Of a DNA stretch of 64,000 nucleotides, positions 5,683 through 47,922 are shown piece after piece. The notes under the pieces are model-generated. The model was given only the letters and a program-made list of their open reading frames with translations, searched no databases and was not told the DNA's origin. The DNA comes from Bacteroidales bacterium. GTDB taxonomy: Bacteria > Bacteroidota > Bacteroidia > Bacteroidales > UBA3824. A program made the translations under genes and the position numbers. The stretch spans positions 1-64,000 of the forward strand of contig JAGCVU010000205.1 in the NCBI GenBank assembly GCA_017962175.1, given 5' to 3'. Position 1 is the stretch's first letter, and the number at the start of each line of letters is the position of its first letter.

Positions 5683-6411
5683 TTAACCCATAAGGCCGCC
5701 GGTGATAGAAATACATTCGCCGGTGATATATGCTGCTGCGTCAGAAGCAAGGAAAGAAACAAGTTCTGCCACTTCGTTGGGTTCGCCAAAACGTCCGAGA
5801 GATATTGTTTTTACTAATTCTTCCTCGGGCAATCCTTCTGTCATATCTGTGCGGATAAATCCGGGAGCAATGGCGTTTACAGTGATATTCTTTTTGCCCA
5901 CCTCTTTCGACAATGCTTTGGTGGCAGCAATGATGGCACCTTTAGAAGCCGAATAGTTGGTTTGTCCGGGTAAACCGATTACACCCGAAACCGAAGCCAT
6001 ATTGATGATACGTCCGTGTTTTTTGCGCACCATTTTGGGAAGAACGGCACGTGTAACGTTGTAAAATCCGTTGATAGTAATAGTGGTAACGGCAGCCCAG
6101 TCTTCCTTGGGCATAAGGGGAAGAAGATTGTCCTTGCGTATACCGGCATTGTTTACAAGCACGTCGATATATTCGCCCTTGTTGTCGTTCATCCATTTTT
6201 CGATGGCTGCGGTGGTTTCGTCGTAGTTAGCCACGTCAAATTTAATAAGTTCGCCTTCTTGACCGGCTTCCTTGGTCAGTTGAAGGGTCTCCTCGGCTTT
6301 TGCCTGATTAGATACATAGTTGATAAGCACCTTGTATCCTTGGCTTGCGAGTTTGATGCAGATAGCGCGTCCGAGTCCGCGGCTGCCGCCTGTTACTAAT
6401 GCGTATTTCAT
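5683..6411 (-). CDS. fabG: 3-oxoacyl-[acyl-carrier-protein] reductase
   Basis: NADPH-dependent reduction of 3-oxoacyl-ACP in fatty acid synthesis. The 242-residue SDR-family protein shows the cofactor motif TGGSRGLG (residues 7-14), the NNAG motif (87-90) and the catalytic set Ser (140/142 region), Tyr153 and Lys157 (YSASK). The C-terminal GFIRTDMT and ITGECISITGGLMG are typical of FabG. It lies 12 bp downstream of ftsX on the same strand and is probably transcribed with it. An SDR with another substrate cannot be excluded, but the length and motifs fit FabG best. Confidence 0.9.
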   Translation of the reverse strand: MKYALVTGGSRGLGRAICIKLASQGYKVLINYVSNQAKAEETLQLTKEAGQEGELIKFDVANYDETTAAIEKWMNDNKGEYIDVLVNNAGIRKDNLLPLMPKEDWAAVTTITINGFYNVTRAVLPKMVRKKHGRIINMASVSGVIGLPGQTNYSASKGAIIAATKALSKEVGKKNITVNAIAPGFIRTDMTEGLPEEELVKTISLGRFGEPNEVAELVSFLASDAAAYITGECISITGGLMG

Positions 6412-11801: not shown

Positions 11802-12245
11802 TTATTTCCTGATTACTAATGGACTTGAAACCAATTTTACATTCATTGTGGCAAGTTTTGCCATTTTGTTTCTATTCCTAATGTCGATGCCGGATGTTGC
11901 CACCCAATAGAATGGAAAATGTTTAATTTCGTTGAGTTTTTGGGCGGAGGTTTTGAGCCAACGTTTTAACCAATCGGCTTTTTTCATTACCTCGTCTATA
12001 TTTTTGGTATCGGCAGAATGAATTTCTACAAAATAAGATTGATTGTTGAAGCCTATAGCATAGTCCCATCGGCTCTGATTTTTGCCAAGTGGTTTATCTT
12101 TTAGACAGAAATCAATATCCACACTACCCTGACAATCTGCAACTTCCACCTTGCGTTTGTATTGATTGCTCAAAGCACCTTTGCCTTCGTGATACTCAAG
12201 GTCGGGCGTAGACAAAACTGCGGTTTTGAATTGGTTATCTGCCAT
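11802..12245 (-). CDS. Small nuclease-like partner of the AAA ATPase (uncharacterised)
   Basis: About 147 residues from the ATG at 12245; an in-frame ATG at 12281 lies inside the upstream gene. I do not recognise a named family. The pattern VDIDFCL ... SRWDYAIGF ... YFVEIHSADT resembles the D...ExK core of PD-(D/E)xK nucleases, with His where the Lys normally stands. This is followed by a helix DEVMKKADWLKRWL and a C-terminal strand FYWVATSGIDI. The start follows the ATPase stop by 2 bp, so the pair is translationally coupled. Two-gene ATPase plus nuclease cassettes are common in phage defence. The defence role is inference from this layout; a structural, non-catalytic partner is possible. 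Confidence 0.7.
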   Translation of the reverse strand: MADNQFKTAVLSTPDLEYHEGKGALSNQYKRKVEVADCQGSVDIDFCLKDKPLGKNQSRWDYAIGFNNQSYFVEIHSADTKNIDEVMKKADWLKRWLKTSAQKLNEIKHFPFYWVATSGIDIRNRNKMAKLATMNVKLVSSPLVIRK

Positions 12246-12247
12246 AA

Positions 12248-13273
12248 TCAGTCGTTTTTGTATTTTGCAATAGCATCGCAAATAAGTGCGTTAAAACTTG
12301 TAAGTTCACCCATTTGCGATACGTCGGGGTCGTTGCTCCAAGCATCAAGAGTGGAAATATCCTTGCTAATTCCGTTGTTGAAGAAATAGGTTTTGATGTT
12401 TTTGCGTGACTTATAAAGAACGTCAATGGCTTGACTATCAGCAATACCAGCCTCGGAGATTACATTCTTAAAACTCTCTTCTGTTGAATCTTGCATAGTC
12501 TTTATAGCCCACGCAAATTCAAGAAACACTGACGAATGTGTGGAGATAACAATTTTAAATCCTTTCGCCATCAGTAGCGACACCTCATTGATAAATCCAA
12601 TTATTGCCCTCGGGTGCAAGCCCATTTCGGGTTCTTCGATTACAATGTATTGAAATTTGGAAGTTTGGTCTTTTGAGATAAAATAATTTGCCATGCTAAG
12701 CGGCATATATTCTTTTTGACCTGCACTCCACGCCACAAACGGCAACGATGTTTCGCCGACACGAAGACGCATTTTTTGCGGACCCATACTCGAATCTATT
12801 TCTATTTTCCCATTATGGTAAATACTTGAAGGGCTGGCAATTGCGGATGCCATCTTTTCGGCATCGGGTGCAAAATTTTGTAGCAAATATTCACTAAATT
12901 GGCGCACAACGTATGGCGTTTCATAGTCAAATTCCATAAAACGTTTTGGTCTGCCATCGGCAATACAAAGCACACGCTGCGCCGGAATGTAGAATATTTT
13001 TTCGGTTTGATTTGATTGTGATGCGCCATCAATCTGTGGCATCTTCAAATTGTTGATACCGAAATAATGTTTCAGGATATTGTCGCCATCGGTGTTGTAT
13101 GAATAATTATTGAGGGTGTTTTTGATGCTAAGATAATCCTCACGCAGTTTCCAAGCCTGCAAAAAGATGCTTTTGCCACTTGCCTGTGGTCCCACAATAA
13201 AAGTCATATCGCCAAACTCTACTTCGGCAGCCTTTATCGGTCCAAAATTATTTAGTGTGAATGAGGTGTTCAT
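12248..13273 (-). CDS. ABC-type AAA ATPase (AAA_15/AAA_21-like), candidate defence sensor
   Basis: 341 residues. It has all motifs of an SMC/Rad50/OLD-type head: an N-terminal FTLNNFGPIKAAEVEF strand pair, Walker A GPQASGKS (residues 28-35), ABC signature WSAGQKEYMPL, Walker B YIVIEEPEMGLHP with the catalytic Glu, and the H-loop ISTHSS. There is no long coiled coil and no fused TOPRIM, so it differs from OLD proteins; the downstream small gene may supply the effector. A good minus-strand promoter (13299-13330) lies just upstream. Short ATPases of this type occur in defence systems such as PARIS and several Abi systems, but I cannot assign it to one. Confidence 0.8.
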   Translation of the reverse strand: MNTSFTLNNFGPIKAAEVEFGDMTFIVGPQASGKSIFLQAWKLREDYLSIKNTLNNYSYNTDGDNILKHYFGINNLKMPQIDGASQSNQTEKIFYIPAQRVLCIADGRPKRFMEFDYETPYVVRQFSEYLLQNFAPDAEKMASAIASPSSIYHNGKIEIDSSMGPQKMRLRVGETSLPFVAWSAGQKEYMPLSMANYFISKDQTSKFQYIVIEEPEMGLHPRAIIGFINEVSLLMAKGFKIVISTHSSVFLEFAWAIKTMQDSTEESFKNVISEAGIADSQAIDVLYKSRKNIKTYFFNNGISKDISTLDAWSNDPDVSQMGELTSFNALICDAIAKYKND

Positions 13274-15075: not shown

Positions 15076-17004
15076 ATGGAATATTCGGGCAAGATATTAT
15101 GTGCAACACACGCGGAACTTGCGGCGGTATTAACCGATAGCAACATCAAGGCTATGCGCAGCCGTGGCGTATTACAGCAAGTGCGCCGTGCGTGTCCCGG
15201 CTATGCCGCACTGTTTGCCGTTGACACTCTGCCCGAAAAGTATAAGAAACAAGTTTTAGCCATTTATCCTATGCCCGACAAAGAGATACAGAGCAATTTT
15301 GCCATTGTGCCCGACTGCGAGGCGGTGAGGTTTTTCGACACCTTTATATTAGACGACGGCCGCCATCTGCCCGAAACCAAGCGCAACGAACTTGCCAACA
15401 ATGCCGCCATACTCAACGCTCTTGGCAGGATGCTTGAACAGTCGGACACGTTAAACCTAAAAATAGGTCGCAAGGTGATAAACCGCACCGACTTTTGGCA
15501 ACGTGCAGCGCAGCACCTTCAAACCATTTCAGAAAACCATTCGTTGCCGCGCAATGCCCGTATGCTGCAACGCAAATACAACGATTACCGCGAAAACGGC
15601 TACACCGCGCTAATAGGCAGCAAGTGGGGCAACGGAAATGCCGCCAAGGTAAAAGACGACCTTTCGATCAGCACTCTCACACAGTTGCTCGCCATAAGCA
15701 ACAACCTCAACAACGCACAGGTGGCAGCCGCTTATAACCAATATGCCGCTGCCAACGGATGGAAACCCATCACCGACGGCACGGTGGCATTATGGCGTAC
15801 AAAAACCGACCTCACAACTTCGGCGGCAAGGCGTGGTACATCAAATTTCTTTAACGAAAAAGCAATGACAGTAAAGCGCAGCCGTCCATCGGCACCGTTC
15901 CTGATGTGGAGCTTAGACGGTTGGGATTGCGAGTTGCTCTATCAAGACACCAAAAACGGACGCACCACATATTACAACCGCGCAGTGTTGGAGGTGGTGC
16001 TTGACCCTGTAAACGACTATATAATAGGTTACGCCATTGGGTTGCAAGAGGATGCCGCCCTTATTACCCGCGCCATTAAAAACGCATTGACACATTCGCA
16101 GCAACTATTTGGCAGTATGCACCGCACCAACCAGATACAGAGCGACCATTTTGCGATGAGTTCTATGCGCCCGGTGTACGCCGCCGTTGCCGACAAGGTA
16201 ACACCTGCACGTGTGGGCAATGCCAAGAGCAAGCCGATAGAGAGGTTTTTCAACTATTTGAACCGTACATATTGCCAGATGTGCAGCAATTGGAGCGGTT
16301 TTGGCGTAACCACCGACCCATCGAAACAGCCCAACTCAGAGGCTATGAACCTAAGAAAAAAAGGTTTTCCCGACTATGAAGGAATTGTGGCACAGATAGA
16401 CGCAATGATAGCCGCCGACCGTGCCAAGAAACAAGCTGAATTTATAAAGCTGTATGCCAACCTTGCCGACGAGCACCGATTGGAAATGCCACGCACCGAA
16501 TATCTCCGCATATTTGGCGAAACCACCGGCCACACCAACCGACTTGCTGCCACAGGTCTAACGCCCACAATACTTGGCAAAAAACGCGAGTACGACTGTT
16601 TTGACATCAAGTTTAGAGAGTTGGCATTTACCGATTGGACGGTGAAATACGACCCCGACGACCTCAGCACCGTATTGGCAGTAAACGAAGACGGCACACA
16701 GGCATTTGTATTAGAAGAGAAATACATCCAACCAATGGCACTTGCCGACCGCAAAGAGGGTGATGCCGAACAGTTGCAGCGCATCCGCGACTATAACAAA
16801 GAACTTCACGATCATGTGGTGGACACCCTTGCCGACACTGCCGACAACGTGGCAAAGATTGTCCGCCTGCCACAATCTTACGACATACTCAGCCGTCTGA
16901 TGCTAACCGACAGCACAGGCGACCACAAAACAAATAAAAAAAGGGCAGCATTGGCAGCTGCATCACCCGACCCACCACCCGATCCCGATTATGATATGTT
17001 CTAA
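15076..17004 (+). CDS. Mu-type DDE transposase (MuA-like)
   Basis: Catalyses integration and replicative transposition of the phage. 642 residues, near the length of MuA. The N-terminal ~230 residues would hold DNA-binding subdomains. The rve-type catalytic core has Asp281 (SLDGWD), Asp357 (QSDHF) and Glu389 (KPIERFF), spaced as in a DDE integrase. A Mu-type C-terminal beta domain (about 500-560) follows, then a Pro/Asp-rich tail that may contact the MuB-like ATPase. The gene is followed by a short spacer of repeated TTTAAACACTTTTAAACAGC, then the MuB-like gene. It shows that the element is a transposable phage and not a tyrosine-integrase prophage. Confidence 0.92.
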   Translation: MEYSGKILCATHAELAAVLTDSNIKAMRSRGVLQQVRRACPGYAALFAVDTLPEKYKKQVLAIYPMPDKEIQSNFAIVPDCEAVRFFDTFILDDGRHLPETKRNELANNAAILNALGRMLEQSDTLNLKIGRKVINRTDFWQRAAQHLQTISENHSLPRNARMLQRKYNDYRENGYTALIGSKWGNGNAAKVKDDLSISTLTQLLAISNNLNNAQVAAAYNQYAAANGWKPITDGTVALWRTKTDLTTSAARRGTSNFFNEKAMTVKRSRPSAPFLMWSLDGWDCELLYQDTKNGRTTYYNRAVLEVVLDPVNDYIIGYAIGLQEDAALITRAIKNALTHSQQLFGSMHRTNQIQSDHFAMSSMRPVYAAVADKVTPARVGNAKSKPIERFFNYLNRTYCQMCSNWSGFGVTTDPSKQPNSEAMNLRKKGFPDYEGIVAQIDAMIAADRAKKQAEFIKLYANLADEHRLEMPRTEYLRIFGETTGHTNRLAATGLTPTILGKKREYDCFDIKFRELAFTDWTVKYDPDDLSTVLAVNEDGTQAFVLEEKYIQPMALADRKEGDAEQLQRIRDYNKELHDHVVDTLADTADNVAKIVRLPQSYDILSRLMLTDSTGDHKTNKKRAALAAASPDPPPDPDYDMF

Positions 17005-17049
17005 ACACTTTTAAACAGCATTTAAACACTTTTAAACAGCAATATTAAA
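17005..17049 (+). repeat. Tandem repeat between transposase and MuB-like gene
   Basis: Two near-identical copies of ACACTTTTAAACAGCATTTA-type sequence occupy the whole 45-bp spacer. The role is unknown; it could be an internal transposase or repressor site, or a simple slippage product. Confidence 0.4.
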
Positions 17050-17892
17050 ATGGAAAATACAGAAAAAATTATCAATGCTTTGAAGCAATTTGTAACGCTC
17101 AAAGGCAGTCAGAACAAAGCAGCCACCGCACTTGGCATATCGGCTGCAACATTAAGCAAAATCCTCAACGGCAAAACCGACGACATTGCCGACGAAATGT
17201 GGCGCATATTGGCAGCCAAGACCGGCTCAACCGGCAAACGCCAATGGTTTACCGCTCAAACAGGCTCGTACAATCAACTGATGTTTGTATTTGCCAACGC
17301 CCAAAACGATGCGCTTGCCTGTGCCGTATGTGGCGAGGCTGGATGTGGCAAGAGCACCGCCGCCGCCGAATACGCATCTACCCACGAAAACGTTGCATTG
17401 CTCACCTGTGCCGAGTATTGGAACAAACGCCAGTTCTTGTCGGCATTGCTGTCATCGTATGGCATAGGCAGCGACGGTCTTTCGGTGGGCGAAATGATGG
17501 ACACCGCAGTGGAGAACATCAAACGTATGGAAAACCCACTTGTAATCCTCGACGAAGCCGACAAACTCTCCGACAGCGTGCTGTACTTCTTTATAACGCT
17601 TTACAACCAGTTGGAAGATTGCGCCGGGCTTGTGCTTATGGCCACCGACTTTTTGAAAAAGCGCATCGAAAAGGGTGTAAAAAACTGTAAGAAGGGTTAC
17701 AAAGAAATCTACTCGCGCATAGGTCGCAAATTTATCTGCATACTCGCCGCAGGACGCGAGGATGTGGCAGCCGCCTGTGTAGCCAACTCTCTCACCGATG
17801 CTCAGGAGATCAACCGCATCTACGCCGATTGTCAGGGCGATTTCCGCCGAGTAAAACGCGCTGTATGGGCAACACTTAAAAAGGCAGCGTAA
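17050..17892 (+). CDS. MuB-like AAA ATPase, transposition target-selection protein
   Basis: 280 residues. The N-terminal HTH (QNKAATALGISAATLSKILNG, residues 21-41) matches the DNA-binding module of MuB. The ATPase core has Walker A GEAGCGKS (95-102) and Walker B LVILDEADKL with Asp168-Glu169. MuB proteins form ATP-dependent filaments on target DNA, stimulate the transposase and give target immunity. Its position directly after the transposase supports the assignment. Confidence 0.9.
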   Translation: MENTEKIINALKQFVTLKGSQNKAATALGISAATLSKILNGKTDDIADEMWRILAAKTGSTGKRQWFTAQTGSYNQLMFVFANAQNDALACAVCGEAGCGKSTAAAEYASTHENVALLTCAEYWNKRQFLSALLSSYGIGSDGLSVGEMMDTAVENIKRMENPLVILDEADKLSDSVLYFFITLYNQLEDCAGLVLMATDFLKKRIEKGVKNCKKGYKEIYSRIGRKFICILAAGREDVAAACVANSLTDAQEINRIYADCQGDFRRVKRAVWATLKKAA

Positions 17893-25231: not shown

Positions 25232-25261
25232 TTTGTATAGTGTTTTTTTATTGTCTTTTTG

Positions 25262-25292
25262 TTTGTAAAACAATTATTTGTTTGTATATTTG
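25262..25292 (+). promoter_or_regulatory. Promoter for the dinD homologue
   Basis: TTTG (25262-25265) and TATATTTG (25285-25292) at 19 bp spacing, a near-perfect Bacteroidota promoter. Its start site would be near 25299, which rules out the ATG at 25259 and supports the ATG at 25325. Confidence 0.65.
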
Positions 25293-25324
25293 TGCCGTTT
25301 TCAAAATCAAAAACGGGATTGAAT

Positions 25325-26140
25325 ATGTGCAATACAACAGAAGAAATAGTATCATTTGAAGATTTTAAAAATCAAAATGGCATCGTTTATTGGTGGGCTT
25401 CGGAAATAGCCGTTATGTTTGGCTACAAAGACCTTAAAAGTTTTCAAAAGGTTATAGACCGAGCAACCAAGGCAATGATGTCGCTTAATATTTCGTATTT
25501 TGATAATATTATTGCGGTTCAAAGAGAGGATAGCAACGGGGAATCGTTTCAAGATTTTAAACTTACACGATTTGCTTGTTACCTTGCCGCTATGAACGGT
25601 GACCCTAAGAAAGAAGAAATTGCGCAGGCTCAGTTGTATTTTGCCCAACAGACTCGCAGTTTTGAACTTCTTGTTGAGAAAAGCAATGATATAGAAAGAT
25701 TGCTTATTAGAGAAGATATTTCCGAAGGAAATAAAAGTCTTGCCTCTGTTGCTAAGTCTGCGGGAGTTGTTGATTATGCAAAATTCCAAAATGCCGGATA
25801 CCTTGGTATGTACAATATGAGGAATTGGGAACTTGCTGAAAAACGCCACGTTGACAAAGCCAAACTCTTTGATAGTATGGGCCGGGCAGAACTCGCAGCC
25901 AACTTGTTTAGAATTACCCAAACTGAGGGTAGAATTAAGAACTATGGCATTTCTGGTCAGAACGCATTGGAACAAGCCCATCGTCTCGTTGGACAAGAAG
26001 TTAGAAAAATTGTACAACAGAACTACCGTACTAATCCTGAGAATTTTCCACAAGAGCGCAGTTTGCCCGAAGTTAAGAAAGATCTGAAAATAGATTATAA
26101 AGGAATAAAGGACGTGGATAATCCTAAAAAGAAAAAATGA
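25325..26140 (+). CDS. dinD: DinD-like DNA-damage-inducible protein (phage cargo)
   Basis: 271 residues. The N-terminus is a BRO-N-like domain (VYWWASEIAVMFGYKDLKSFQKVIDRA, residues ~20-45), and the C-terminal half matches E. coli DinD closely (GYLGMYN, LFDSMGRAELAANLFRITQTE). E. coli DinD is SOS-induced and inhibits RecA filament activity. Here the gene is an autonomous unit with its own promoter, on the strand opposite to the surrounding late genes, and clearly more AT-rich than them. A phage could gain by tuning host recombination or SOS. Start chosen from promoter position; the longer frame to 25259 is not likely. Confidence 0.88.
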   Translation: MCNTTEEIVSFEDFKNQNGIVYWWASEIAVMFGYKDLKSFQKVIDRATKAMMSLNISYFDNIIAVQREDSNGESFQDFKLTRFACYLAAMNGDPKKEEIAQAQLYFAQQTRSFELLVEKSNDIERLLIREDISEGNKSLASVAKSAGVVDYAKFQNAGYLGMYNMRNWELAEKRHVDKAKLFDSMGRAELAANLFRITQTEGRIKNYGISGQNALEQAHRLVGQEVRKIVQQNYRTNPENFPQERSLPEVKKDLKIDYKGIKDVDNPKKKK

Positions 26141-26167
26141 TTTCTTTTTGAGTATCGTTTTTATATA

Positions 26168-26199
26168 TTTGTCTTTTTTCATAACTTTTCGTATATTTG
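26168..26199 (+). promoter_or_regulatory. Promoter for the acidic 66-residue protein
   Basis: TTTG (26168-26171), 20-bp spacer, TATATTTG (26192-26199); the ATG follows at 26229. Strong agreement with the consensus, and separate from the dinD promoter. Confidence 0.65.
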
Positions 26200-26228
26200 C
26201 AACGTTAAACCATAAAAATAATATTACA

Positions 26229-26429
26229 ATGGATTTGTCTTTAATAAATAATATAGATGATGTACTCGAACACCTCGAAGATTTAACTGACGATGACCTT
26301 GTTAAACTTCGCGAGATGGGTGTTTACGAACCTTTATCTGTTGAAGACCCTGATATAGATGAAATCATAACAGATAAAGATATTGAATCTGATCTTGGAA
26401 ATATACCTATGCCAGAGGGGTGGAAGTAG
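26229..26429 (+). CDS. Small very acidic protein beside the MuF toxin-like tip
   Basis: 66 residues with 21 Asp/Glu against 4 Lys/Arg, and the aromatic end MPEGWK. No family recognised. Its stop codon lies 2 bp from the stop of the MuF gene on the other strand. Two readings fit: an immunity protein or antitoxin for the C-terminal domain of the MuF protein, or a DNA-mimic anti-defence protein. Own strong promoter suggests expression in the lysogen. Neither function is shown. Confidence 0.7.
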   Translation: MDLSLINNIDDVLEHLEDLTDDDLVKLREMGVYEPLSVEDPDIDEIITDKDIESDLGNIPMPEGWK

Positions 26430-26431
26430 TA

Positions 26432-28027
26432 TCATTTATTATTTATCTCTATCTTTTTTAATTTTTGCTTTAGATAACGTAACATTCCTTTACATTGATA
26501 ATTTTGAGGGTTTAAAACTGCATTCCAGTTAGAGCCTTGCAAATAAGGTTTGTATTTTTTTATACCAAGTTTCTGCATTGGGAATGGCTCTGTATCTTTT
26601 TTCTTCCCTTTTTGATAGAAGTTATCGATGATATTCATACCATCTTTAACATCTTTGTTATCAAATCGGGACAAAACTATTTTTTCTGCCTCCGCTCTAT
26701 TTTTTGCATAATATCCAATTCGAGCCCAAGTGTAACCACCTGAAGTTAAATTTGGATCAGCGTAAACCTTTGTTATTCCCATTGTTCTATATTGTTTTAA
26801 TAATTCAAGAGATATTATAGATCCCATTCCCGTTCCAGATGGATTTATGGAAATATATTTATGTATAACAGTTTTTTTATCTTGATCAAAACATATTATC
26901 AGTTTAAAATCATCTCCTAAAATTTTTAACATAATACCATCGTTTTTGGTTTTTATAATACTTCGACGTGTATTATTCCACGCTTTTTCAAGTTCTTTGT
27001 CAGTAATAATGTTTACACTATCTGATATTATTCGACAAAGTCGTACTGCATCGAATTTTTCAAAAGAAGTGTTCTGTAAATCTTTTAGTGATACTTCCGA
27101 TTTATAGATTTTTAATAGTTGTTCGTATTTTGATTCGTTTATCACATATTTTGGTGCAGGTGCAAAGTTTTTCCATTCATATTTTTCAACCTCTCTTTGA
27201 AATAACAATCTTCCTTCCACACACGCCGCGCATTGCGGTTTTAATGCCAAACTTTGCGGCGTGCCATTGCACCTCTGACATTGGCTCATAAAATACGGAT
27301 GGCCTTTGGGGAAGATAACGCCTTTTTTGCCGACGTTGACTTGAAACATGGGGGCTACTTTGCAGTGCTTTAAATCCATGTCCGGCGTTTCTTTGTGGTT
27401 TTTGCCGGGTAGTTGGATAACTTCGCAGCGGCAGCCCCAACCGTTTGGCGGATAGTATTTGTCCCAAAAGTCAGAATCTATGCGTTTGATTACTCCATTA
27501 AGCGCAGCGTGTTCGGGTCGGGTGTTGTTGTCCATCACGGCTTGATATTGGAGATACGGCATAGATTGGGAACGGGAAACTTGCTCAGTCCAACGCGCTG
27601 CACATTGCGAAGCGGCAACGGCGTGGTTGTATTCGGTACGCAACCAATTGCCATTGTATTGAAGGTTCATTTTGTCAACCTCTTTTTGAAAGTCGGAGAA
27701 AGAGCGTAGTTTGCCATCGGTATCTTTGAGGGCAAGGGTCATATCTTGCAAGATGTGAAAATCTTTTGATGCCGAAAATTGGAAAACGTTTTCGGTGAGT
27801 TTGCGAAGCGTGTTGAAGTCGGGCGTATCGTAGTCTACATCTGAGAGCGATTTGCCGTAGCCTGTTGTCATAGCGGTTAACAAGGTGGTGGCAGTAGAGG
27901 CTAACAGTTCGGGGTCGTAGGTGATACGTTCACCTTTGAATATACGCTTGGCAAGATTGTTGACAATGCCGGAGAGCCTATTTTGTGGCGGCAGTTCTGC
28001 GTTGGCTTGGGCAGAACTGCCTAACAA
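26432..28027 (-). CDS. MuF head morphogenesis protein with C-terminal toxin-like domain
   Basis: About 531 residues from a TTG at 28027 that overlaps the portal stop (TTGTTAG). The frame stays open to 28135, inside the portal gene, but those codons look like a shadow. Residues ~1-235 are a Mu gpF/MuF minor head domain (YNHAVAASQCAARW, DNNTRPEHAALNGVIKRID, YYPPNGWGCRCEV). A CxxC...CxxC zinc-knuckle-like element (about 245-265) follows. The last ~265 residues are AT-rich and foreign-looking, with SINPSGTGMGSIISLELLKQ and a following Y-T-W-A-R-I-G-Y-Y pattern that resemble the acetyl-CoA loop and core of a GNAT fold. MuF fusions to polymorphic toxins are known in temperate phages. Toxicity is inference. 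Confidence 0.8.
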   Translation of the reverse strand: MLGSSAQANAELPPQNRLSGIVNNLAKRIFKGERITYDPELLASTATTLLTAMTTGYGKSLSDVDYDTPDFNTLRKLTENVFQFSASKDFHILQDMTLALKDTDGKLRSFSDFQKEVDKMNLQYNGNWLRTEYNHAVAASQCAARWTEQVSRSQSMPYLQYQAVMDNNTRPEHAALNGVIKRIDSDFWDKYYPPNGWGCRCEVIQLPGKNHKETPDMDLKHCKVAPMFQVNVGKKGVIFPKGHPYFMSQCQRCNGTPQSLALKPQCAACVEGRLLFQREVEKYEWKNFAPAPKYVINESKYEQLLKIYKSEVSLKDLQNTSFEKFDAVRLCRIISDSVNIITDKELEKAWNNTRRSIIKTKNDGIMLKILGDDFKLIICFDQDKKTVIHKYISINPSGTGMGSIISLELLKQYRTMGITKVYADPNLTSGGYTWARIGYYAKNRAEAEKIVLSRFDNKDVKDGMNIIDNFYQKGKKKDTEPFPMQKLGIKKYKPYLQGSNWNAVLNPQNYQCKGMLRYLKQKLKKIEINNK

Positions 28028-29199
28028 AAATTTTTGTAGAGAGGTGTGGGGGCGGACATGTCCGTAGACGAGCCGTCCGCGCCCCAGTTGGGACGTTTGC
28101 CGGTGATGGGAACGTTGAAGGTTTGGGCAAGCCATTTTTCGTCAACGTCGTAGCCTTGCACAATCATTTGGTTTACTATGTTCCAGTGCTCGGTTAATGG
28201 CAACTCAAACGAGGCATTGAACTGAAATTTGTCGGTTTCGGGATTAAATGGGTATTTAAACCTATTTAAAAGCGGTATTAACTGACCGTTTACAACAAAT
28301 GAAATCATGCGACGGTCGGCCTCGGAAAGTTTGTCGTCGAGGTTGCGTTCGTGAACTTCGGATTGCGACCGGGAACTGCCGTCGTCGGTAACCATTGTGC
28401 CGCCTGTAATGGGTTTTGATATTTCGGCATTGATACGGTCTATTTGGCTGTCGTAAACCTTGTAAGCGTCGGACCCGGCAAAAGGTGTAACGTTGATGGT
28501 GGTGCCATCGGGCAGAACTGCGCGGGCAGACTCGCCAAGTTCGGCAAGCATAGTGTCTAATTGGCGGATGTCGGCAGGCGAAGTTTGCGAAGTGGTGGCT
28601 GTGATGAGCGGCATACCAAAACGCTCGGTAAACTCAGCCCACGACTGTTGGGCGTTTCGTTTCCAAATCAATTGACCGCAGAGATCTGCCATAAGTCCGA
28701 GGTCGGAGGGCTTGCCAACTTTTATTAGCGTGTTTTGATACTCCTTTGCATTAAAGTTGATGCCTTTATTGTCGCTAATATCGCGCTGCACAATACCAAG
28801 AGTGCCTACCACATTGCGGCGCGGTATCACTTCAAAAGTCAGGTTTTTGGGGTCGGTAAGTTCTATAAGGGTAAACCCTTTGAATATGCTGTCTAAGGCA
28901 TAATCCAAAAAGATGAAAAACCATTCGCCGGAAAAGAAATCGGTTTTTTCTTGGTTTACTTCGCCGGTCTTTTTGTCGATTATGGAAAAGCCATAACCCG
29001 AAGTTGCGGTTTTTCTAAGTTCTTTTTGTGCCAAGTAATGACCATCGCTGTCAAGATTGTCGTAAAGGTCTTGCAACGGGTATGAACGCGGATTAATAGG
29101 CGACTGTGCAAGGGCAAGGGCATTGCGCCATTTTTGGATGTCGGCTCTTGTTTGGTCTTTGAAGCCTGCAATTATATGTTCAAAAATACTCTGTTTCAT
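28021..29199 (-). CDS. Phage portal protein (DUF935, Mu gp29-like)
   Basis: Forms the dodecameric ring at the capsid vertex through which DNA enters and leaves. 392 residues; DUF935 signatures include the N-terminal RSYPLQDLYDNLDSDGHY, FDYALDSIFKGFTLIEL-type segment (FIFLDYALDSIFKGFTLIEL), QLIWKRNAQQSWAEFTERFGMP and DRINAEISKPITGGTM. Follows the gp36-like gene in the order terminase-gp36-portal-MuF. The 3' end overlaps the start of the MuF gene by a few bases. Confidence 0.9.
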   Translation of the reverse strand: MKQSIFEHIIAGFKDQTRADIQKWRNALALAQSPINPRSYPLQDLYDNLDSDGHYLAQKELRKTATSGYGFSIIDKKTGEVNQEKTDFFSGEWFFIFLDYALDSIFKGFTLIELTDPKNLTFEVIPRRNVVGTLGIVQRDISDNKGINFNAKEYQNTLIKVGKPSDLGLMADLCGQLIWKRNAQQSWAEFTERFGMPLITATTSQTSPADIRQLDTMLAELGESARAVLPDGTTINVTPFAGSDAYKVYDSQIDRINAEISKPITGGTMVTDDGSSRSQSEVHERNLDDKLSEADRRMISFVVNGQLIPLLNRFKYPFNPETDKFQFNASFELPLTEHWNIVNQMIVQGYDVDEKWLAQTFNVPITGKRPNWGADGSSTDMSAPTPLYKNFC

Positions 29200-35952: not shown

Positions 35953-36657
35953 ATGATTACAATTGACTTAAACGAACGTTACAAAAAAGCCTTTGGTTAT
36001 GTGGCAAAGGTGTCGGCAGAGGGTTTTACCAACAAAGTGGTAAGGCACAACACCGAACAGGCAGCGCATCACCTTGCGGCAAATGTGATTCATACTCAAA
36101 TAGACAAAGGTCTGTTGGCTATAAGTCAGGCAAAAGGTAATTCAGTTAATAAAAGTTTCAACGGCAAGGTAGAAGTGATGGTTTATGCCGGCGACTATAC
36201 CTTTGCCGACCTGAAACTAAAATCTGCCAACGACGGCAAGGTGTACGAGTTCCGAAACAGCCTGTTAACCGATGGCGAAAATGGCGTATTTGCGGCAAGT
36301 CCGATGTTGAAGTTCGACCGAAATAAAAAAATCACCGCCACGGCAATTGCAGGCAGTGATAATACGGTGGTAGAAGATTTCGGAATGGAGCCGTGGACAA
36401 TAACATTAGATGGTCTTTTGATTGATTTAGACAATCACCAATATCCATCAGCGAAAGTACAGACGTTTAGACAGATGTTTGAAACGCCCGACACATTCGA
36501 GGTATTAGAGTGTCAGCCGATGCTTGATTTGGGTATTACGGCATTGTACTTTGAAAGTGTAAAAAACTTGGCTATTGTGGAAGATTATCCCGATACGGTA
36601 AAATACCAACTATCAGCCAAGAGCATACAACCGCCTGAGTTTACAATTAGCGATTGA
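35953..36657 (+). CDS. Phage tail/baseplate protein (DUF6046-like)
   Basis: 234 residues. The start ITIDLNERYKKAFGYVAKV, the segment VMVYAGDYTFADLKLKSANDGKVYEF and FGMEPWTITLDGLLIDLDNHQYP resemble a family I associate with Bacteroidales Mu-like phages (DUF6046). Position between chaperone and hub gene equals that of Mu's gp43 tail protein, but length and sequence differ. Its C-terminus overlaps the convergent septoil-like gene by 11 bp. Confidence 0.6.
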   Translation: MITIDLNERYKKAFGYVAKVSAEGFTNKVVRHNTEQAAHHLAANVIHTQIDKGLLAISQAKGNSVNKSFNGKVEVMVYAGDYTFADLKLKSANDGKVYEFRNSLLTDGENGVFAASPMLKFDRNKKITATAIAGSDNTVVEDFGMEPWTITLDGLLIDLDNHQYPSAKVQTFRQMFETPDTFEVLECQPMLDLGITALYFESVKNLAIVEDYPDTVKYQLSAKSIQPPEFTISD

Positions 36658-37000
36658 TGTGTGGATTAAAAGTTCTAACCTCAACAGTTAAATCGGGATT
36701 ATGGTCTACAAGTTCAACTCGCAAATCGGGATTATGGTCTACAAGTTCATATTCGCCGCAATTACTTGGATAGTGTTCCATAACATAAACATCGGGGTTA
36801 TGGTCAACAATCTCTACCCTCAAATCGGGGCTATGGTCCACAATCTCTACTCTGCCATGCAGAGGAAAAGTTTTGCCATCGGCTTTTCGTGTAATAGTGC
36901 AGTTGTTTTTGTCGATGGTAAACTTGCCAATATCTATGGTTTGGGCAGCGGCGGCGTAGCATATTAACGCCATTGCAAATGATAAAACGAACTTTTTCAT
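36647..37000 (-). CDS. Secreted VDHNPDL-repeat protein (possible 7(1) septoil-knot/DUF6150-like)
   Basis: 117 residues on the strand opposite to the tail genes. The N-terminus MKKFVLSFAMALICYAAAAQ is a signal peptide with an Ala-Ala-Gln cleavage region. The mature part has four near-identical strands, (V/Y)E(I/L)VDH(N/S)PD(L/V), at residues 51-61, 62-72, 84-94 and 95-105. The spacer between copies two and three contains a Cys that could pair with Cys34. Alternating VDxxPD strands of this kind occur in the DUF6150 family, which has been described as a 7(1) torus-knot fold. This gene is a moron: expressed alone, secreted, unrelated to tail assembly. Its function (surface change, exclusion) is unknown. 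Confidence 0.7.
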   Translation of the reverse strand: MKKFVLSFAMALICYAAAAQTIDIGKFTIDKNNCTITRKADGKTFPLHGRVEIVDHSPDLRVEIVDHNPDVYVMEHYPSNCGEYELVDHNPDLRVELVDHNPDLTVEVRTFNPHINR

Positions 37001-37053
37001 AGTGTTTAAACGGTATTTAAAAGGTTATTAACTACGGTGTAAATATACAAAAA

Positions 37054-38073
37054 ATGTACTATTCTGCAAAAGCCGAGGCAACAATCGGCAAAATAAAAAT
37101 AGAGGGCATAACAGAAGCCGAGTTTGAAAGTAGCGTAGACGAAATTGGCGGCACTGCCAAAATAACGTTGCCACGCCGCTTTATCAACAAAAACGGCAAA
37201 GCGCTGTTAGACCTTATTCACACCGGCGACCGCGTAACCTTGAAACTTGGATACAATGGAAAACTTGAAACCGAGTTTACCGGCTATCTTGCCCACATCG
37301 GCGACGGTACTCCGCTTGTGTTGGAATGCGACGACGATTGGTACAAGTTTAAAAAGGCGGCACATATAACCAAAAGTTACACAAGTGTAAGCCTTAAAAC
37401 ACTATTGCAAGACCTTTGTCCCGGATATGCAGTTGAGTGCGTAGACTTCACCTTTTCGGGCGGATACATTATCAAAGACGTTACGCCATACACAGTAATC
37501 AAAAAGATAAAAGAAGAGGTTGGGTTCTGTGCCAAGTTAGACGAGCAAAACAAACAAATATCTTGCTTTTGGCCATTCGATTTTAAAGGGTTTGCAAAAC
37601 ATACCTACGTATTCGGCACAAGAAACGGCACACTGTTGAAAGAGTTGCGCGACAAACGTCTTGCGCCAAACATTGCATCTTGCGCACTTAAATTTATACG
37701 CAAAGAAGACCGAAAACTGCAAATAACAGGCAAGGCAAAACAGAAAAAAGGCAAGCCGATAACCGCAGTGGTAGGTTGTATGGAAGCCGATGCCGAAAAA
37801 CGCACAATGAACTTTGGTTCGGACGTAACATCAGAGGCAGAACTTAAAAAGCGAATCCAAACCGAACTTGAAAACAAAAGTTTCGACGGTTACGAGGGCA
37901 CAATCACAGGATTTGGCACACCACAAACAAAACCCGGCGACACACTAAAACTTGTAGACCGCGAGAACCCGGAACGCGAAGGCGAATACCTTATTAAAAA
38001 GGTGAAAGTAAAATACTCGCAAAGTGGATTTAGACGAGAAAACGAACTTAGTTATAAAATGCATTATTCATAA
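37054..38073 (+). CDS. Baseplate hub protein (gpD / Mu gp44-like)
   Basis: 339 residues. Late control gene D type: the N-terminus forms split-barrel strands (GTAKITLPRRFI, LIHTGDRVTLKLGYNGKLETEFTGYLAHIG), followed by LVLECDDDWYKFKK and, near the end, GTPQTKPGDTLKLVDRENPEREGEYLIKKVKVKYS, typical of hub proteins that hold the spike. The spike gene follows after 5 bp. No glycosidase domain is present. Confidence 0.8.
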   Translation: MYYSAKAEATIGKIKIEGITEAEFESSVDEIGGTAKITLPRRFINKNGKALLDLIHTGDRVTLKLGYNGKLETEFTGYLAHIGDGTPLVLECDDDWYKFKKAAHITKSYTSVSLKTLLQDLCPGYAVECVDFTFSGGYIIKDVTPYTVIKKIKEEVGFCAKLDEQNKQISCFWPFDFKGFAKHTYVFGTRNGTLLKELRDKRLAPNIASCALKFIRKEDRKLQITGKAKQKKGKPITAVVGCMEADAEKRTMNFGSDVTSEAELKKRIQTELENKSFDGYEGTITGFGTPQTKPGDTLKLVDRENPEREGEYLIKKVKVKYSQSGFRRENELSYKMHYS

Positions 38074-42948: not shown

Positions 42949-45750
42949 TTATTTTTTTGGAGAACTGAGGGCAAGGCGGAAGCCACAATTCAAAGTACGA
43001 ATAAATCGATTGTGGTAACTATATATACGTTCAATAACACGCTCATCATTATCAAAAGAACCGCCACACAGAACTCCATTTACCGAATTATTAGTCAAAT
43101 TAGAACACCACTCCCAAACATTACCAAACATATCGTACAAGCCTAAAACATTGGCTTCCATTTGTTTTACAGGATGAGTAATATCACGAGAATTCTTTGA
43201 ATACCAAGCTACATCTTCTAATTTATCACTTCCACTGTATTTAAATTTTGGGCTAAATACACCACCACGTGCAGCATACGTCCATTCTGCCTTGGTCGGG
43301 AGTCGAAATATAAGACCTGTCAATTCATTTAATTTAATAATAAATTCCATACAATCGTACCAAGATGTCATTTCTACTGGATAATTATCACCAAATTTGA
43401 ATTGACTACAATTACTATCATTTCCCATTACAGCATTCCACAATCCTTGCGTAACTTGAATTTCGCAAATATAATAATCTTCTGTTATAGATACAGGATG
43501 AATATCATTGTCATCATTATCTTCTTCTTCATCAGCCATATGAACAACCCCTTTCTCTATTATTACCATCTTAAAAGAATATTCTTTTTCATCAGGAGCT
43601 TTAAACTTAATCACTCCATCTGCTGGTATAATGCCTGTGCAACCAGTTTGAGATGCAAGCCAATCGTAGTACACTAAATGGGATGATTTTTCTTTATATT
43701 CACCGTTCAACTTGTCATATATTTCTTTACCTGTAAAATTGTACATTTTTTTTAACAATTTCGACTTGTATGCAATTTCATATAAATCAGGAATACGTTT
43801 AATGTACGCCAAACCATACAAGAACAACAAATCCTCATACACTGAAAGATCTTTTTCATTGATAAACAGCTCAAGAGGTGTTGCGTCTATGCATGATTGA
43901 GTATAACCATCTAAACTATCACCTTCTGTTTTGATAATATTCTTGACATTATTAACATACACAGAATAATATGGTAGTATGCCTTCGACATTATTTTCCT
44001 TAAAAATTTGTTTATAAAACTGATCTTTAATAATATCATGAATTTTAAAACATCGTGTATTCCCTTTATCCATTGAATCTAAGACACATTTGTCAACAAG
44101 GGTATTTAAACAATCATCCACCGCAGTAACAAATCTCGGATTAGAATCATCAACATCAGACATAAATTGTCGAATTAACTTTGCGCTATAATAATCTGTC
44201 GGCCATATAACAAGTAATCGAACAATTTTTTGAGAACTCTCATCCAAAGAATCTAAGCGCATCAACAACGAGAGAAATTCACGAATTTTCTCGTATTGTC
44301 GAAACCACATTTTATGGTCTTCAAAACCATCACCAAGATATTTCCAAATGAAGTCAAACGAACGTGCCTCGCTTGCTTCTCGTAGGTAATAAGCCAGATG
44401 TTCAATCAATATTGGCAAATGACCAAGTTTGAGAAACAACTTCTTTAATTGCTCTCGAGAAAAAGAATACCTATTATCACCTTTTAAATATTTATTGAAA
44501 ATATCTTCCAAAACAGAAAAATCGACTTTATCAGTTTCCAATTTCAGAGGATCGAAATGAACACGTGCCGATTTCATTTTTTCTCTTGAAACCACCAATA
44601 TTTTCCAATTTTTCAACCTTTGATTATCACGCAAATTATCAAGTGCATTTTCAATTATATCATAATCAGCATGCTCGTTTATATCAATTATCAACAAATT
44701 AAATTTGTTTCCATCTTTGGGATACATTTCTAATTTATCAATAATCACGTCGTATGTCATTTCGTCAATATTTAATGATATTGATGTAGGCACATCGTCA
44801 CCAATAGCATGATAACCTATATTAAAAATTTTTGAATACGTTGCACTAATCTCACGATAATAATAGTAATTGATAAACAAACCTGTCTTTTGATTAAAGG
44901 CATCGCTGTATATATTGACAAAAGATTCCGTTATAGTTGTTTTGCCACAACCGCCGACACCTATTAGGTTAACTATCTGATTATGTTCAAATAACCGCAT
45001 GATTTCTTTGGCTTCAATAGGTCTTGGCACAATGTCTTTACGAGTATCAAAAGACAAAATCGGCAGAGAAGTTACCTGAGTTTGTTCCGATTCAGTAAAA
45101 GAAGAATCATTGTGCTGATAATTAGACGTTGAATTAAGTTCATCTATACGCGACTTGATTTGATTTAGTAGTTCATCATAATCAAACTTTTCAAGTTTCG
45201 GAACAGATCTGTCGTGAAAATATTTTGAAATCAAATGCAATTCTCTTTTAAACGCATCACGACCCAAATTAAGCACAAATTTATCAGCGTCGGTCAATTG
45301 GTCTGGATATTCAACCTCTTTATCTGCAAGTTCATCATAGTTTTTGTCAAGTATTTTATCTAATTTGCTTGTACGGATTTCATCTTTTAATCTATCTCTA
45401 ATATCGTCCAAGTATATTGGGAAAATGCGTTTCTTATAGTCATTCGAATTATGAACAATATTATACCATTCGTACATACAATGCCACGAATTCAAATATT
45501 TTATGCTGAATACGACAACGACAATGTCCCCTCTGCCGATTTCCTCTTCCGAATCCATCATTGGACGACGATAAGTGAACGTTGATTTGCCATTCACCTT
45601 ATAATCACGATAATCAATATTCGCTTTATCCAACCTTTCCCTGAGTTCCTCCACGGGCTTCTCCGATTCATTATCGACTTCATTATTGCCCGAATAAGAA
45701 AAATATACAGGATGATTTGGATTTAAATATGTTTTCGTTTCCTCTGCCAT
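42949..45750 (-). CDS. TIR - STAND NTPase - FGE-like fusion protein, candidate anti-phage sensor
   Basis: 933 residues in four parts. A TIR domain (about 14-150) starts VYFSYSGNN, with the WHCMYE motif placing a candidate NADase Glu at 94. A STAND/NB-ARC NTPase follows: Walker A GVGGCGKT (264-271), Walker B LLIIDI with Asp356, sensor VVSRE (386-390), then a winged-helix/helical part (about 430-690). The C-terminal ~180 residues (about 755-928) form an FGE-sulfatase-like domain: EIQVTQGLWNAVMG, RLPTKAEWTYAARGG (816-830), LYDMFGNVWEWC (871-882), CGGSF and GFRLAL. I see no clear FGE catalytic Cys pair, so the fold may act as a ligand sensor. The gene follows the SLATT-like gene by 12 bp. Defence role is inference from domains. 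Confidence 0.85.
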   Translation of the reverse strand: MAEETKTYLNPNHPVYFSYSGNNEVDNESEKPVEELRERLDKANIDYRDYKVNGKSTFTYRRPMMDSEEEIGRGDIVVVVFSIKYLNSWHCMYEWYNIVHNSNDYKKRIFPIYLDDIRDRLKDEIRTSKLDKILDKNYDELADKEVEYPDQLTDADKFVLNLGRDAFKRELHLISKYFHDRSVPKLEKFDYDELLNQIKSRIDELNSTSNYQHNDSSFTESEQTQVTSLPILSFDTRKDIVPRPIEAKEIMRLFEHNQIVNLIGVGGCGKTTITESFVNIYSDAFNQKTGLFINYYYYREISATYSKIFNIGYHAIGDDVPTSISLNIDEMTYDVIIDKLEMYPKDGNKFNLLIIDINEHADYDIIENALDNLRDNQRLKNWKILVVSREKMKSARVHFDPLKLETDKVDFSVLEDIFNKYLKGDNRYSFSREQLKKLFLKLGHLPILIEHLAYYLREASEARSFDFIWKYLGDGFEDHKMWFRQYEKIREFLSLLMRLDSLDESSQKIVRLLVIWPTDYYSAKLIRQFMSDVDDSNPRFVTAVDDCLNTLVDKCVLDSMDKGNTRCFKIHDIIKDQFYKQIFKENNVEGILPYYSVYVNNVKNIIKTEGDSLDGYTQSCIDATPLELFINEKDLSVYEDLLFLYGLAYIKRIPDLYEIAYKSKLLKKMYNFTGKEIYDKLNGEYKEKSSHLVYYDWLASQTGCTGIIPADGVIKFKAPDEKEYSFKMVIIEKGVVHMADEEEDNDDNDIHPVSITEDYYICEIQVTQGLWNAVMGNDSNCSQFKFGDNYPVEMTSWYDCMEFIIKLNELTGLIFRLPTKAEWTYAARGGVFSPKFKYSGSDKLEDVAWYSKNSRDITHPVKQMEANVLGLYDMFGNVWEWCSNLTNNSVNGVLCGGSFDNDERVIERIYSYHNRFIRTLNCGFRLALSSPKK

Positions 45751-45762
45751 AGGTTATATCCT

Positions 45763-47922
45763 CTACTTCTTATCTTTGTCGTCATTATCTTTTTTATCAC
45801 CCTTTCTGCCGAGTTTTCGTTCTATTATCTTATCCAACTGCTCTTCAAAATTGGCAAGGGCAATCTTGCGAGCGATAAAGTCATCAACGTCCTCAGCAAT
45901 AATGCCTTCTGTATTGTTAACAAACACAAGGTCTCGATAATCCAGTTTATTATTTGAATTATCACCATCGGACTTTTTATCGGCGAAATCGCCTTTTTGT
46001 AATTTGAACTCTATGATTACAGCCTGAATATCGCGATAGTAGAAATGGCGGTTCAGCCAAAACTTATCGTTTTCAGCGATAAACGAAAGTTTATCTACCA
46101 GTTTTTTCTCCGACGAAGAAAGTTCTTCATCCTCGAAAGAGGAGTATTCTCCGTCAGAACGCACGTAATTGGATATTTCCTCAGTGAGCCTACGATAGCA
46201 TTTATACCTGCCCGGACCATTCTTGTGGTGAACAGCAATCTCATTGACACGCTGCAAGAAATACGCTGTACGATCATTGATAGCGAAGTAATCTTCCATT
46301 GTTTCAAAATTTTCTATTTCATTGACAATCGCCTCCTGCAATTTATGCAAAAAGCCATCAGCTTCTTTGTTAATTCTTCTGATACGCGACAAGAACAAGC
46401 CTGTCTTATAATATACATTGTTAGAATTGAGGTGAAGAATCAGCTTAAAATCGCCTTCACCATTCTGGAATGCAGAGATTTCCTTGCTAATCTTGCCCAA
46501 TAGTTTTTTGTCCAAATGCGATGCCTCAACTAAGTTGTCTATTTTTTTAAACATCTTATTGCAATTATCTTGAACAATGTTTTCACATTCCGCTTTTTGT
46601 TTGGTAATCCTATTATAAAGGTCGCACAACAAGTTTTTGCTTGTTTCGGCTTGTTTAATCAACTTCTTGTAATTGTCAAACAAACTTTTTAATCTTTCCG
46701 CAACTTTTTTATTGACTTCGTCCTTATTATTCTCTGCTTCTTTTTGGTTCTTTGAAACTTCATTACAAAGGTTGTCCAACAATTCTTTGTAAGTATCAGC
46801 AAAACTAACAAGTTCCTTGATTTCGTCGAACAATTTCTTGAAACAATCAGAACAATTATTTTTTACTTTTTCCTTTAAAATCTGAATCTCATCAACATTG
46901 TCCAGAAATTCCTGATTTGATTCTGCGCTTTCTTCTATTTTTTTGAGATTATCAACTAACAAGTTGAAATATCCTATTCGTCGCTCAATTTCTTTTGAAT
47001 ACTCGGTGTTAATGCTGTCAATTTCATTCAGAAATTCTTCCTTAAAATCCTCAATCTGTTTTTTTGAATTCGCCTTTTCTTCATCCATTTCTTTCTGATG
47101 CGTAACTTTCAATTCTTCCACATCTTTCTGATGCTTAGAATTTAAGGCTTCAATGTCGTTTTCATATTTAGCCCTTAACTCATCTATTGAAATATGCTGT
47201 GTGGATGTTGTTTCCCTGTGGGCGTTTTCTATGGTAACATTGGCAAATGCGAATGAAGTTAACGAAGGTGGATTTGGCAATTGAGGCTTAGGAGATTCAG
47301 AACTTTCAGTACCGGCATCGTCATCATTATTGCCATCTTTTTGATTATCATTGTCTGCGTTTTGTGTCTTCTTTTCTGTCTTTTCATATTCTCCTGCTCC
47401 TAAACGGTATAGACAATACTCCCTTTTGAGCCGCTCCGACGCTTTACGATTCTTTATCCATTCTTCTCGGTACTGCATAAATTTATCAATACTTGTAAGC
47501 ACAACTACAAGCATAGTCAGCAATGCACAAACAATTCTATTATTAAACCATTTATCAGTGATAATAGCTTTTGCTTCGCCTTCCATTTTTATAGTTCCAA
47601 AAACCTCATCAAAGTTTATCGCAAGCACTGCCGCAGAAATTGCACTAAGTACTATAATCCAAATCTGCATACGCTGATATATACTCTTCATTTTAGCAGA
47701 CTTGTTGCTGAAAAACTCTCGTTGATCGCGCCATCGCTTGTCGATATAGCCTTCAACATCACCATTCTTAATGGCTTGTTCTCTTGCCTTGGCGCGATAA
47801 GCCTTTCGACCTATGCCGAGATAAAGTCCCAAGAAATTGAGATTACAATTCTCGGTTTCAAAGCCATTTCTTTGAGACTGTCGGCGAAGGCAAAAATAGC
47901 GGTTGAATAATTGAAATATCAT
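45763..47922 (-). CDS. SLATT/DUF4231-like two-TM protein with long coiled coil, candidate membrane effector
   Basis: 719 residues. Residues ~58-180 resemble DUF4231/SLATT: a helix DKRWRDQREFFSNKSAKM, TM1 at about 86-103, TM2 at about 129-145, then DKFMQYREEWIKNRKASERLKREYCLYRLGAGEY. SLATT proteins are predicted pore-forming effectors of nucleotide-triggered conflict systems. A polar linker (about 180-240) and heptad-rich coiled coils (about 245-470) follow, then a charged C-terminal domain (about 480-700) without recognised motif, ending in a Lys/Asp-rich tail. It has its own promoter 26 bp upstream and is the first gene of the operon with the TIR-STAND protein. I expect oligomerisation through the coiled coil and membrane action; this is inference. 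Confidence 0.8.
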   Translation of the reverse strand: MIFQLFNRYFCLRRQSQRNGFETENCNLNFLGLYLGIGRKAYRAKAREQAIKNGDVEGYIDKRWRDQREFFSNKSAKMKSIYQRMQIWIIVLSAISAAVLAINFDEVFGTIKMEGEAKAIITDKWFNNRIVCALLTMLVVVLTSIDKFMQYREEWIKNRKASERLKREYCLYRLGAGEYEKTEKKTQNADNDNQKDGNNDDDAGTESSESPKPQLPNPPSLTSFAFANVTIENAHRETTSTQHISIDELRAKYENDIEALNSKHQKDVEELKVTHQKEMDEEKANSKKQIEDFKEEFLNEIDSINTEYSKEIERRIGYFNLLVDNLKKIEESAESNQEFLDNVDEIQILKEKVKNNCSDCFKKLFDEIKELVSFADTYKELLDNLCNEVSKNQKEAENNKDEVNKKVAERLKSLFDNYKKLIKQAETSKNLLCDLYNRITKQKAECENIVQDNCNKMFKKIDNLVEASHLDKKLLGKISKEISAFQNGEGDFKLILHLNSNNVYYKTGLFLSRIRRINKEADGFLHKLQEAIVNEIENFETMEDYFAINDRTAYFLQRVNEIAVHHKNGPGRYKCYRRLTEEISNYVRSDGEYSSFEDEELSSSEKKLVDKLSFIAENDKFWLNRHFYYRDIQAVIIEFKLQKGDFADKKSDGDNSNNKLDYRDLVFVNNTEGIIAEDVDDFIARKIALANFEEQLDKIIERKLGRKGDKKDNDDKDKK

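Follow-up and report, generated by a model that had tools for sequence, protein, structure and literature searches.

An antisense septoil-knot-fold gene of Bacteroidales prophages, its exchange with a baseplate domain, and a possible role in superinfection exclusion

Throughout, the window denotes the whole stretch of 64,000 nt of DNA, from a rumen bacterium of the Bacteroidales, that was analysed. It holds a prophage in which a gene that we call SEPT (septoil-knot-fold) lies antisense among the tail genes. Sequence comparisons indicate that SEPT and the domain of the adjacent DUF6046 baseplate protein are swapped as one module between phages that are otherwise 97-100% identical, that SEPT alleles differ by a coherently repeated loop motif, and that hosts of three species carry arrays of intact divergent alleles, all of which is new here. 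Our confidence in the anatomy is very high. As to function, we tentatively propose, with somewhat less than even confidence, that SEPT excludes superinfecting phages in an allele-specific manner, with the incoming tube/hub as its target.

The prophage is Mu-like: genes resembling MuA and MuB occupy 15076-17892, those for portal, terminase and capsid lie at 28-33.6 kb, and contractile tail genes extend to ~42.8 kb. The reverse orientation within the tail block that the earlier note had described is as stated, i.e., SEPT is found on the minus strand between two plus-strand baseplate genes (Table 1).

Other genes in and around the prophage are given here as side observations. The MuF head protein (26432-28135, minus strand) has a variable, polymorphic-toxin-like C-terminal domain; opposite to it (25259-26429, plus strand) lie a Bro-N gene and an acidic ORF of 93 aa that is possibly an immunity gene, and position 25278 has a strong promoter-like site. 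Two genes immediately upstream of the prophage (11802-13273, minus strand) match the PADLOC candidate defence pair PDC-M56A/B (E=2e-96, 2e-40). Just past the tail end, a 933-aa protein (42949-45750, minus strand) combines TIR, an NB-ARC-like NTPase and a C-terminal FGE-sulfatase; it looks like a STAND-type defence protein, and it is not in PADLOC. Its gene is adjoined by one for a 719-aa protein with weak ZorA/MotA-like similarity (45763-47922, minus strand).

Table 1. Features of the SEPT locus in the window (positions of the whole stretch)
Feature	Coordinates	Strand	Basis or remark
SEPT (septoil-knot-fold) gene	36647..37000	-	117 aa; phrog_6462 match, profile/fold kinship, dN/dS
SEPT signal peptide	36944-37000	-	signal-peptide part of the ORF
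SEPT mature chain	36650-36943	-	remainder of the ORF after the signal peptide
SEPT strand-repeat core, model residues 29-90	36674..36859	-	superposes on Q9PR55 35-89
Predicted SEPT promoter, Bacteroidetes-type TTTG-N19-TATATTTA	37040..37070	-	motif and positional conservation
DUF6046 baseplate protein gene	35953..36657	+	3' end overlaps the SEPT gene end
DUF6046 domain, predicted tube-initiator/tail-tube fold	36289-36651	+	structure model
GPD-type baseplate hub gene	37054..38073	+	phrog_4930 E=4e-50
Exchange module: DUF6046 domain and SEPT up to its start codon	36315..36980	.	divergence from G003/G005

The SEPT product starts MKKFVLSFAMALICYAAAAQ-TIDIGK..., and the signal peptide that the earlier note had read in it was confirmed from sequence as an export signal of type I (MKKFVLSFAMALICYAAAA/QT) without a lipobox cysteine. 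Four strand repeats had been claimed, and four full, near-identical (E/D)(I/L)VDH(S/N)PD copies are indeed present; two further degenerate ones (EHYPS, TFNPH) had been missed. The near-identity of the repeats at the DNA level is likewise real, with a period of 33 nt and a self-identity that was reached by 0/2000 codon shuffles. Compared with a 91%-identical allele of another phage, SEPT shows a dN/dS of 0.05 with synonymous sites near saturation, and the values within its allele class are 0.03-0.05. This pattern of substitutions indicates purifying selection within the allele class. Given the low dN/dS at near-saturated synonymous sites, we take SEPT to be a selected protein, so that the overlapping plus-strand ORF is unnecessary to explain it; a reading as an antisense regulator or spurious ORF is ruled out by the same ratio. 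The -33 box of the predicted promoter falls within the first codons of the hub gene. In the window by itself, this promoter is not significant (shuffle p 0.09) and is identified by motif only; its position upstream of SEPT is conserved in most phage alleles and array copies, and the motif is perfect in four array copies.

Regarding family, SEPT is a member of PHROG 6462 by HMM (phrog_6462 E=1.1e-15), an entry that itself carries neither function nor structure. When a profile of 52 SEPT relatives was compared with the PDB, Q9PR55 (8iwa, 8iwb, 8jrm) was found at E=2e-12, and the next-best sequence had 0.3. The single SEPT sequence by itself gives no match. Structure prediction, which the earlier note had suggested as a check, agrees: the AF2 model reaches a pLDDT of 94.4, and Foldseek returns Q9PR55 as its sole significant match (8iwa E=6.6e-5, prob 1.00). 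The model superposes on Q9PR55 with Z 6.2 and 1.1 A over 49 residues, with no unrelated chain close, and a BFVD fold search with it gave nothing significant. By profile and model, SEPT is kin to a 7(1)-knot protein and is predicted to share its fold.

No knot more complex than 7(1) has been reported in a protein. Q9PR55 (UU089.1 of Ureaplasma; PDB 8iwa, 8iwb, 8jrm), in which the 7(1) knot was solved, is related to SEPT over the strand repeats, and the SFPD loop repeat that it carries is also the one most often found in the SEPT family. SEPT differs from it by export, by an extra N-terminal region (residues 1-28) and by an identity of 22-26%. Q9PR55 is not known to us to have a phage link or a function, and we found no reported function for any member of the septoil-knot family. 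The knot type of SEPT should not be assumed to be 7(1), since a Q9PR55 homologue was predicted as a 5(1) knot (PMC9278004); AlphaFold is also able to misjudge topology (PMC10672856).

The earlier note had placed SEPT within DUF6150. Its knot-family claim stands for the kinship and fold similarity to Q9PR55 and falls for this membership, i.e., SEPT and 51 relatives all score below the Pfam gathering cut-off of PF19647 (27 bits). Profile-profile comparison of the SEPT family with DUF6150 yields a probability of 86% (E=5e-6), which at the sequence level points to distant sister families. They share about six 11-residue strand repeats, a central G-x-W element, export and occurrence in Bacteroidales, and differ in the loop motif. 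Weak matches to Pfam Filamin, DUF6767 and others as well as to NCBIfam were below cut-offs and inconsistent between members, and no PADLOC model matches the SEPT protein. Short matches from Planctomycetes and others (L154-L178) extend over fewer than 60 residues in the N-terminal part and were dismissed as chance.

We assessed the insertion among relatives sought by the hub protein, i.e., independently of SEPT. Seven prophages of the genus, including that of the window, have hubs at least 77% identical, and SEPT is found at the same site and in the same orientation in 7/7. Three more phages agree on the site, namely two IMG/VR contigs and a Paludibacter prophage (hub 47%), which form a biased sample as they were fetched via SEPT itself. 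In a divergent phage (G020), SEPT also lies between the DUF6046 and hub genes. The next relatives (hub 33-40%; L179-L182, L197) lack SEPT and show a DUF6046-hub gap of at most 21 nt or an overlap; DUF6046 and hub are likewise adjacent without SEPT in L114, L116, L117, L193 and L198. These empty sites bear out the moron claimed by the earlier note, which had also named homologues in other prophages as a test. Gene order indicates that SEPT is a phage moron, i.e., an extra gene in opposite orientation with its own predicted promoter.

A second SEPT subclass, also antisense, is found on the other side of the hub in G282 and G316. It has four members in 393 genomes, i.e., these two, L045, where it lies beside a truncated hub, and an island in the window's own genome; its placement indicates that it entered phages independently on the hub's other side. 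In L045 (1395-2795), SEPT genes of the two subclasses lie on either side of the hub fragment. The island (L098, G000:C161, 1433-3896) combines the second-subclass SEPT with a CdiA_C-like ORF. Searching IMG/VR with SEPT yielded two contigs only, and a hub search there yielded nothing.

Comparing the window with the prophages of G003 and G005 delimits the exchange. The tail block is ~97-100% identical except for 36315-36980, with first sparse mismatches at 36253-36282; within this module, SEPT is 43% and the DUF6046 domain 78% identical. The reverse is observed for a phage contig (IMG1), where tube (56%) and DUF6046 N half (57%) are divergent from the window and DUF6046 domain (82%) and SEPT (84%) are similar. 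Over seven independent phages, SEPT similarity tracks that of the DUF6046 domain (Mantel r 0.45, p 0.016) but not that of the DUF6046 N half, tube, hub or J protein. The GPD hub is not the matched partner of SEPT, since G003 and the window have different SEPT alleles and the same hub. The joint travel of SEPT and DUF6046 domain could possibly reflect neighbour linkage alone; that the breakpoint lies within the DUF6046 gene, close to where the domain starts, mildly favours a functional pair. The DUF6046 model (pLDDT 72.6, the domain itself mostly >84) resembles the tail-tube/tube-initiator ring in baseplates of Mu, R2 pyocin and diffocin.

SEPT loops include the types DHNPD, SAPD, SFED, DAFPD, NFPD and DSYAD. 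Within a protein, the loops at the four strand turns are far more alike than by chance (0.66 vs 0.37 +/- 0.01), and therefore an allele can be described as a coherent set of repeated loops.

Tandem chromosomal SEPT genes occur in three species of the genus, with three copies in G011:C56, three in G015:C152 and two or more in G002:C191. The array genomes are metagenome assemblies from three projects, and two of them share the chromosomal flank: the G011 and G002 arrays adjoin the prolyl-tRNA synthetase gene, next to which no array was found in other genus members with sequence reaching far enough downstream. An array unit comprises a hub 5' stub with the promoter, SEPT in full length, and the 3' stub of a DUF6046 gene. 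In two array species, the two stubs are the only phage remnants; in G015, two units also have truncated MuF genes whose tails differ and whose DUF6046/MuF junction is identical. That intact divergent SEPT genes are kept while capsid and tail genes are lost implies that the arrays benefit the host. As side observations, array spacers (L084 13974-16500, L086 300-1700, L085 2740-4850) show a promoter-like TTGTTTGTAYATTTGC, ~100 nt and a hairpin like that of an intrinsic terminator, from which it is possible that they encode small RNAs; Rfam and ARAGORN gave no match on these spacers. The L085 array is bordered by two copies of a terminator-like aaacgggcggtagggttaccgtccgtttttt (1245-1285 and 6010-6050).

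Most SEPT relatives are ordinary chromosomal Bacteroidales genes without phage context, so the ancestral function of SEPT need not concern phages. Gene context of the chromosomal relatives revealed no conserved functional partner. A second kind of tail cluster beside SEPT, considered for L091, L092 and L101, was rejected, as the neighbours turned out to be genes for BatA/BatD and housekeeping functions. In this lineage, the relatives derive from uncultured Bacteroidales of rumen or gut, and a tblastn search of GenBank phage records found no SEPT match; this could account for the lack of a known phenotype.

We propose the following course of exclusion. In the lysogen, SEPT would be transcribed from a promoter of its own while the tail operon on the opposite strand is silent, and the Sec pathway would carry the product out to the periplasm or the cell surface. 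At that location, it is predicted to adopt a compact beta structure resembling a torus knot, in which acidic, allele-specific loops are lined up in a row. When the tube-end/hub complex of a related infecting phage reaches the periplasm, SEPT would bind to it and thereby block DNA entry. The best candidate partner is the DUF6046 tube-initiator domain, since it travels with SEPT as one module. The proposal also builds on analogy with the Ltp superinfection-exclusion lipoproteins of Streptococcus thermophilus phages, which are exported, carry acidic repeats, are encoded by a moron and have an allele-dependent range, as we propose for SEPT. The acidic repeats of Ltp target the tape measure protein, alleles differ in target range, and a secreted, non-lipidated derivative also works (PMC3952083). 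On the other hand, no sequence kinship of Ltp and SEPT is seen, and Ltp is lipid-anchored, is found in the lysogeny module and has the tape measure protein as target. A wider version, an exclusion system with matched alleles in which phages swap a module of tube-initiator domain and exported knot protein and bacteria collect knot genes in chromosomal arrays as a heritable exclusion bank, we regard as conceivable yet somewhat unlikely.

Exported SEPT might instead give the lysogen an altered surface or envelope (adhesion, protease resistance, stress) with no anti-phage role. We consider such a host-fitness moron unlikely, though SEPT homologues often occur as solitary chromosomal genes in Bacteroidales, and in one host lineage a lipoprotein with a SEPT domain is paired with a secreted SEPT (L014 86-1156, 1177-1569). 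It leaves unexplained that phage copies lie directly beside the hub gene, on one side or the other, that alleles swap with a baseplate domain and that hosts stack several divergent alleles. Exclusion is favoured over a generic host interaction because of the allele swapping and the host arrays.

SEPT could also bind the phage's own tail parts or receptor and keep progeny off lysogens and debris. The module linkage to the baseplate domain also fits this, but phage-free host arrays would bring no gain; being a special case of the exclusion model, it is hard to tell apart from it, and we deem it improbable. To a pairing of SEPT, as secreted weapon or immunity factor, with the phage's MuF polymorphic toxin, such that arrays are toxin/immunity banks, we likewise give little credence. 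Bacteroides MuF toxins do have cognate immunity genes (PMC11699363), two array units in L085 join SEPT to different MuF toxin-like tails at the same junction, and SEPT lies near the CdiA_C-like ORF in L098. However, SEPT has a signal peptide whereas characterised MuF toxins act in the cytoplasm, the L084 and L086 arrays retain SEPT without MuF, and the two genes are 9 kb apart in phages. A structural or assembly part of the tail, as the fixed site between two baseplate genes might suggest, is very hard to reconcile with antisense orientation, signal peptide and the lack of SEPT in relatives with otherwise the same tail operons.

With these findings, a branch of the 7(1)-knot family is placed in a setting that constrains its function, i.e., beside the tail hub, with allele exchange and host hoarding. 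An exclusion system with matched alleles, if true, would give the septoil-knot fold its first biological function, and host arrays would then amount to phage exclusion that is acquired and inherited in a simple form. The setting of SEPT could thus link protein knots to an envelope role in gut bacteria.
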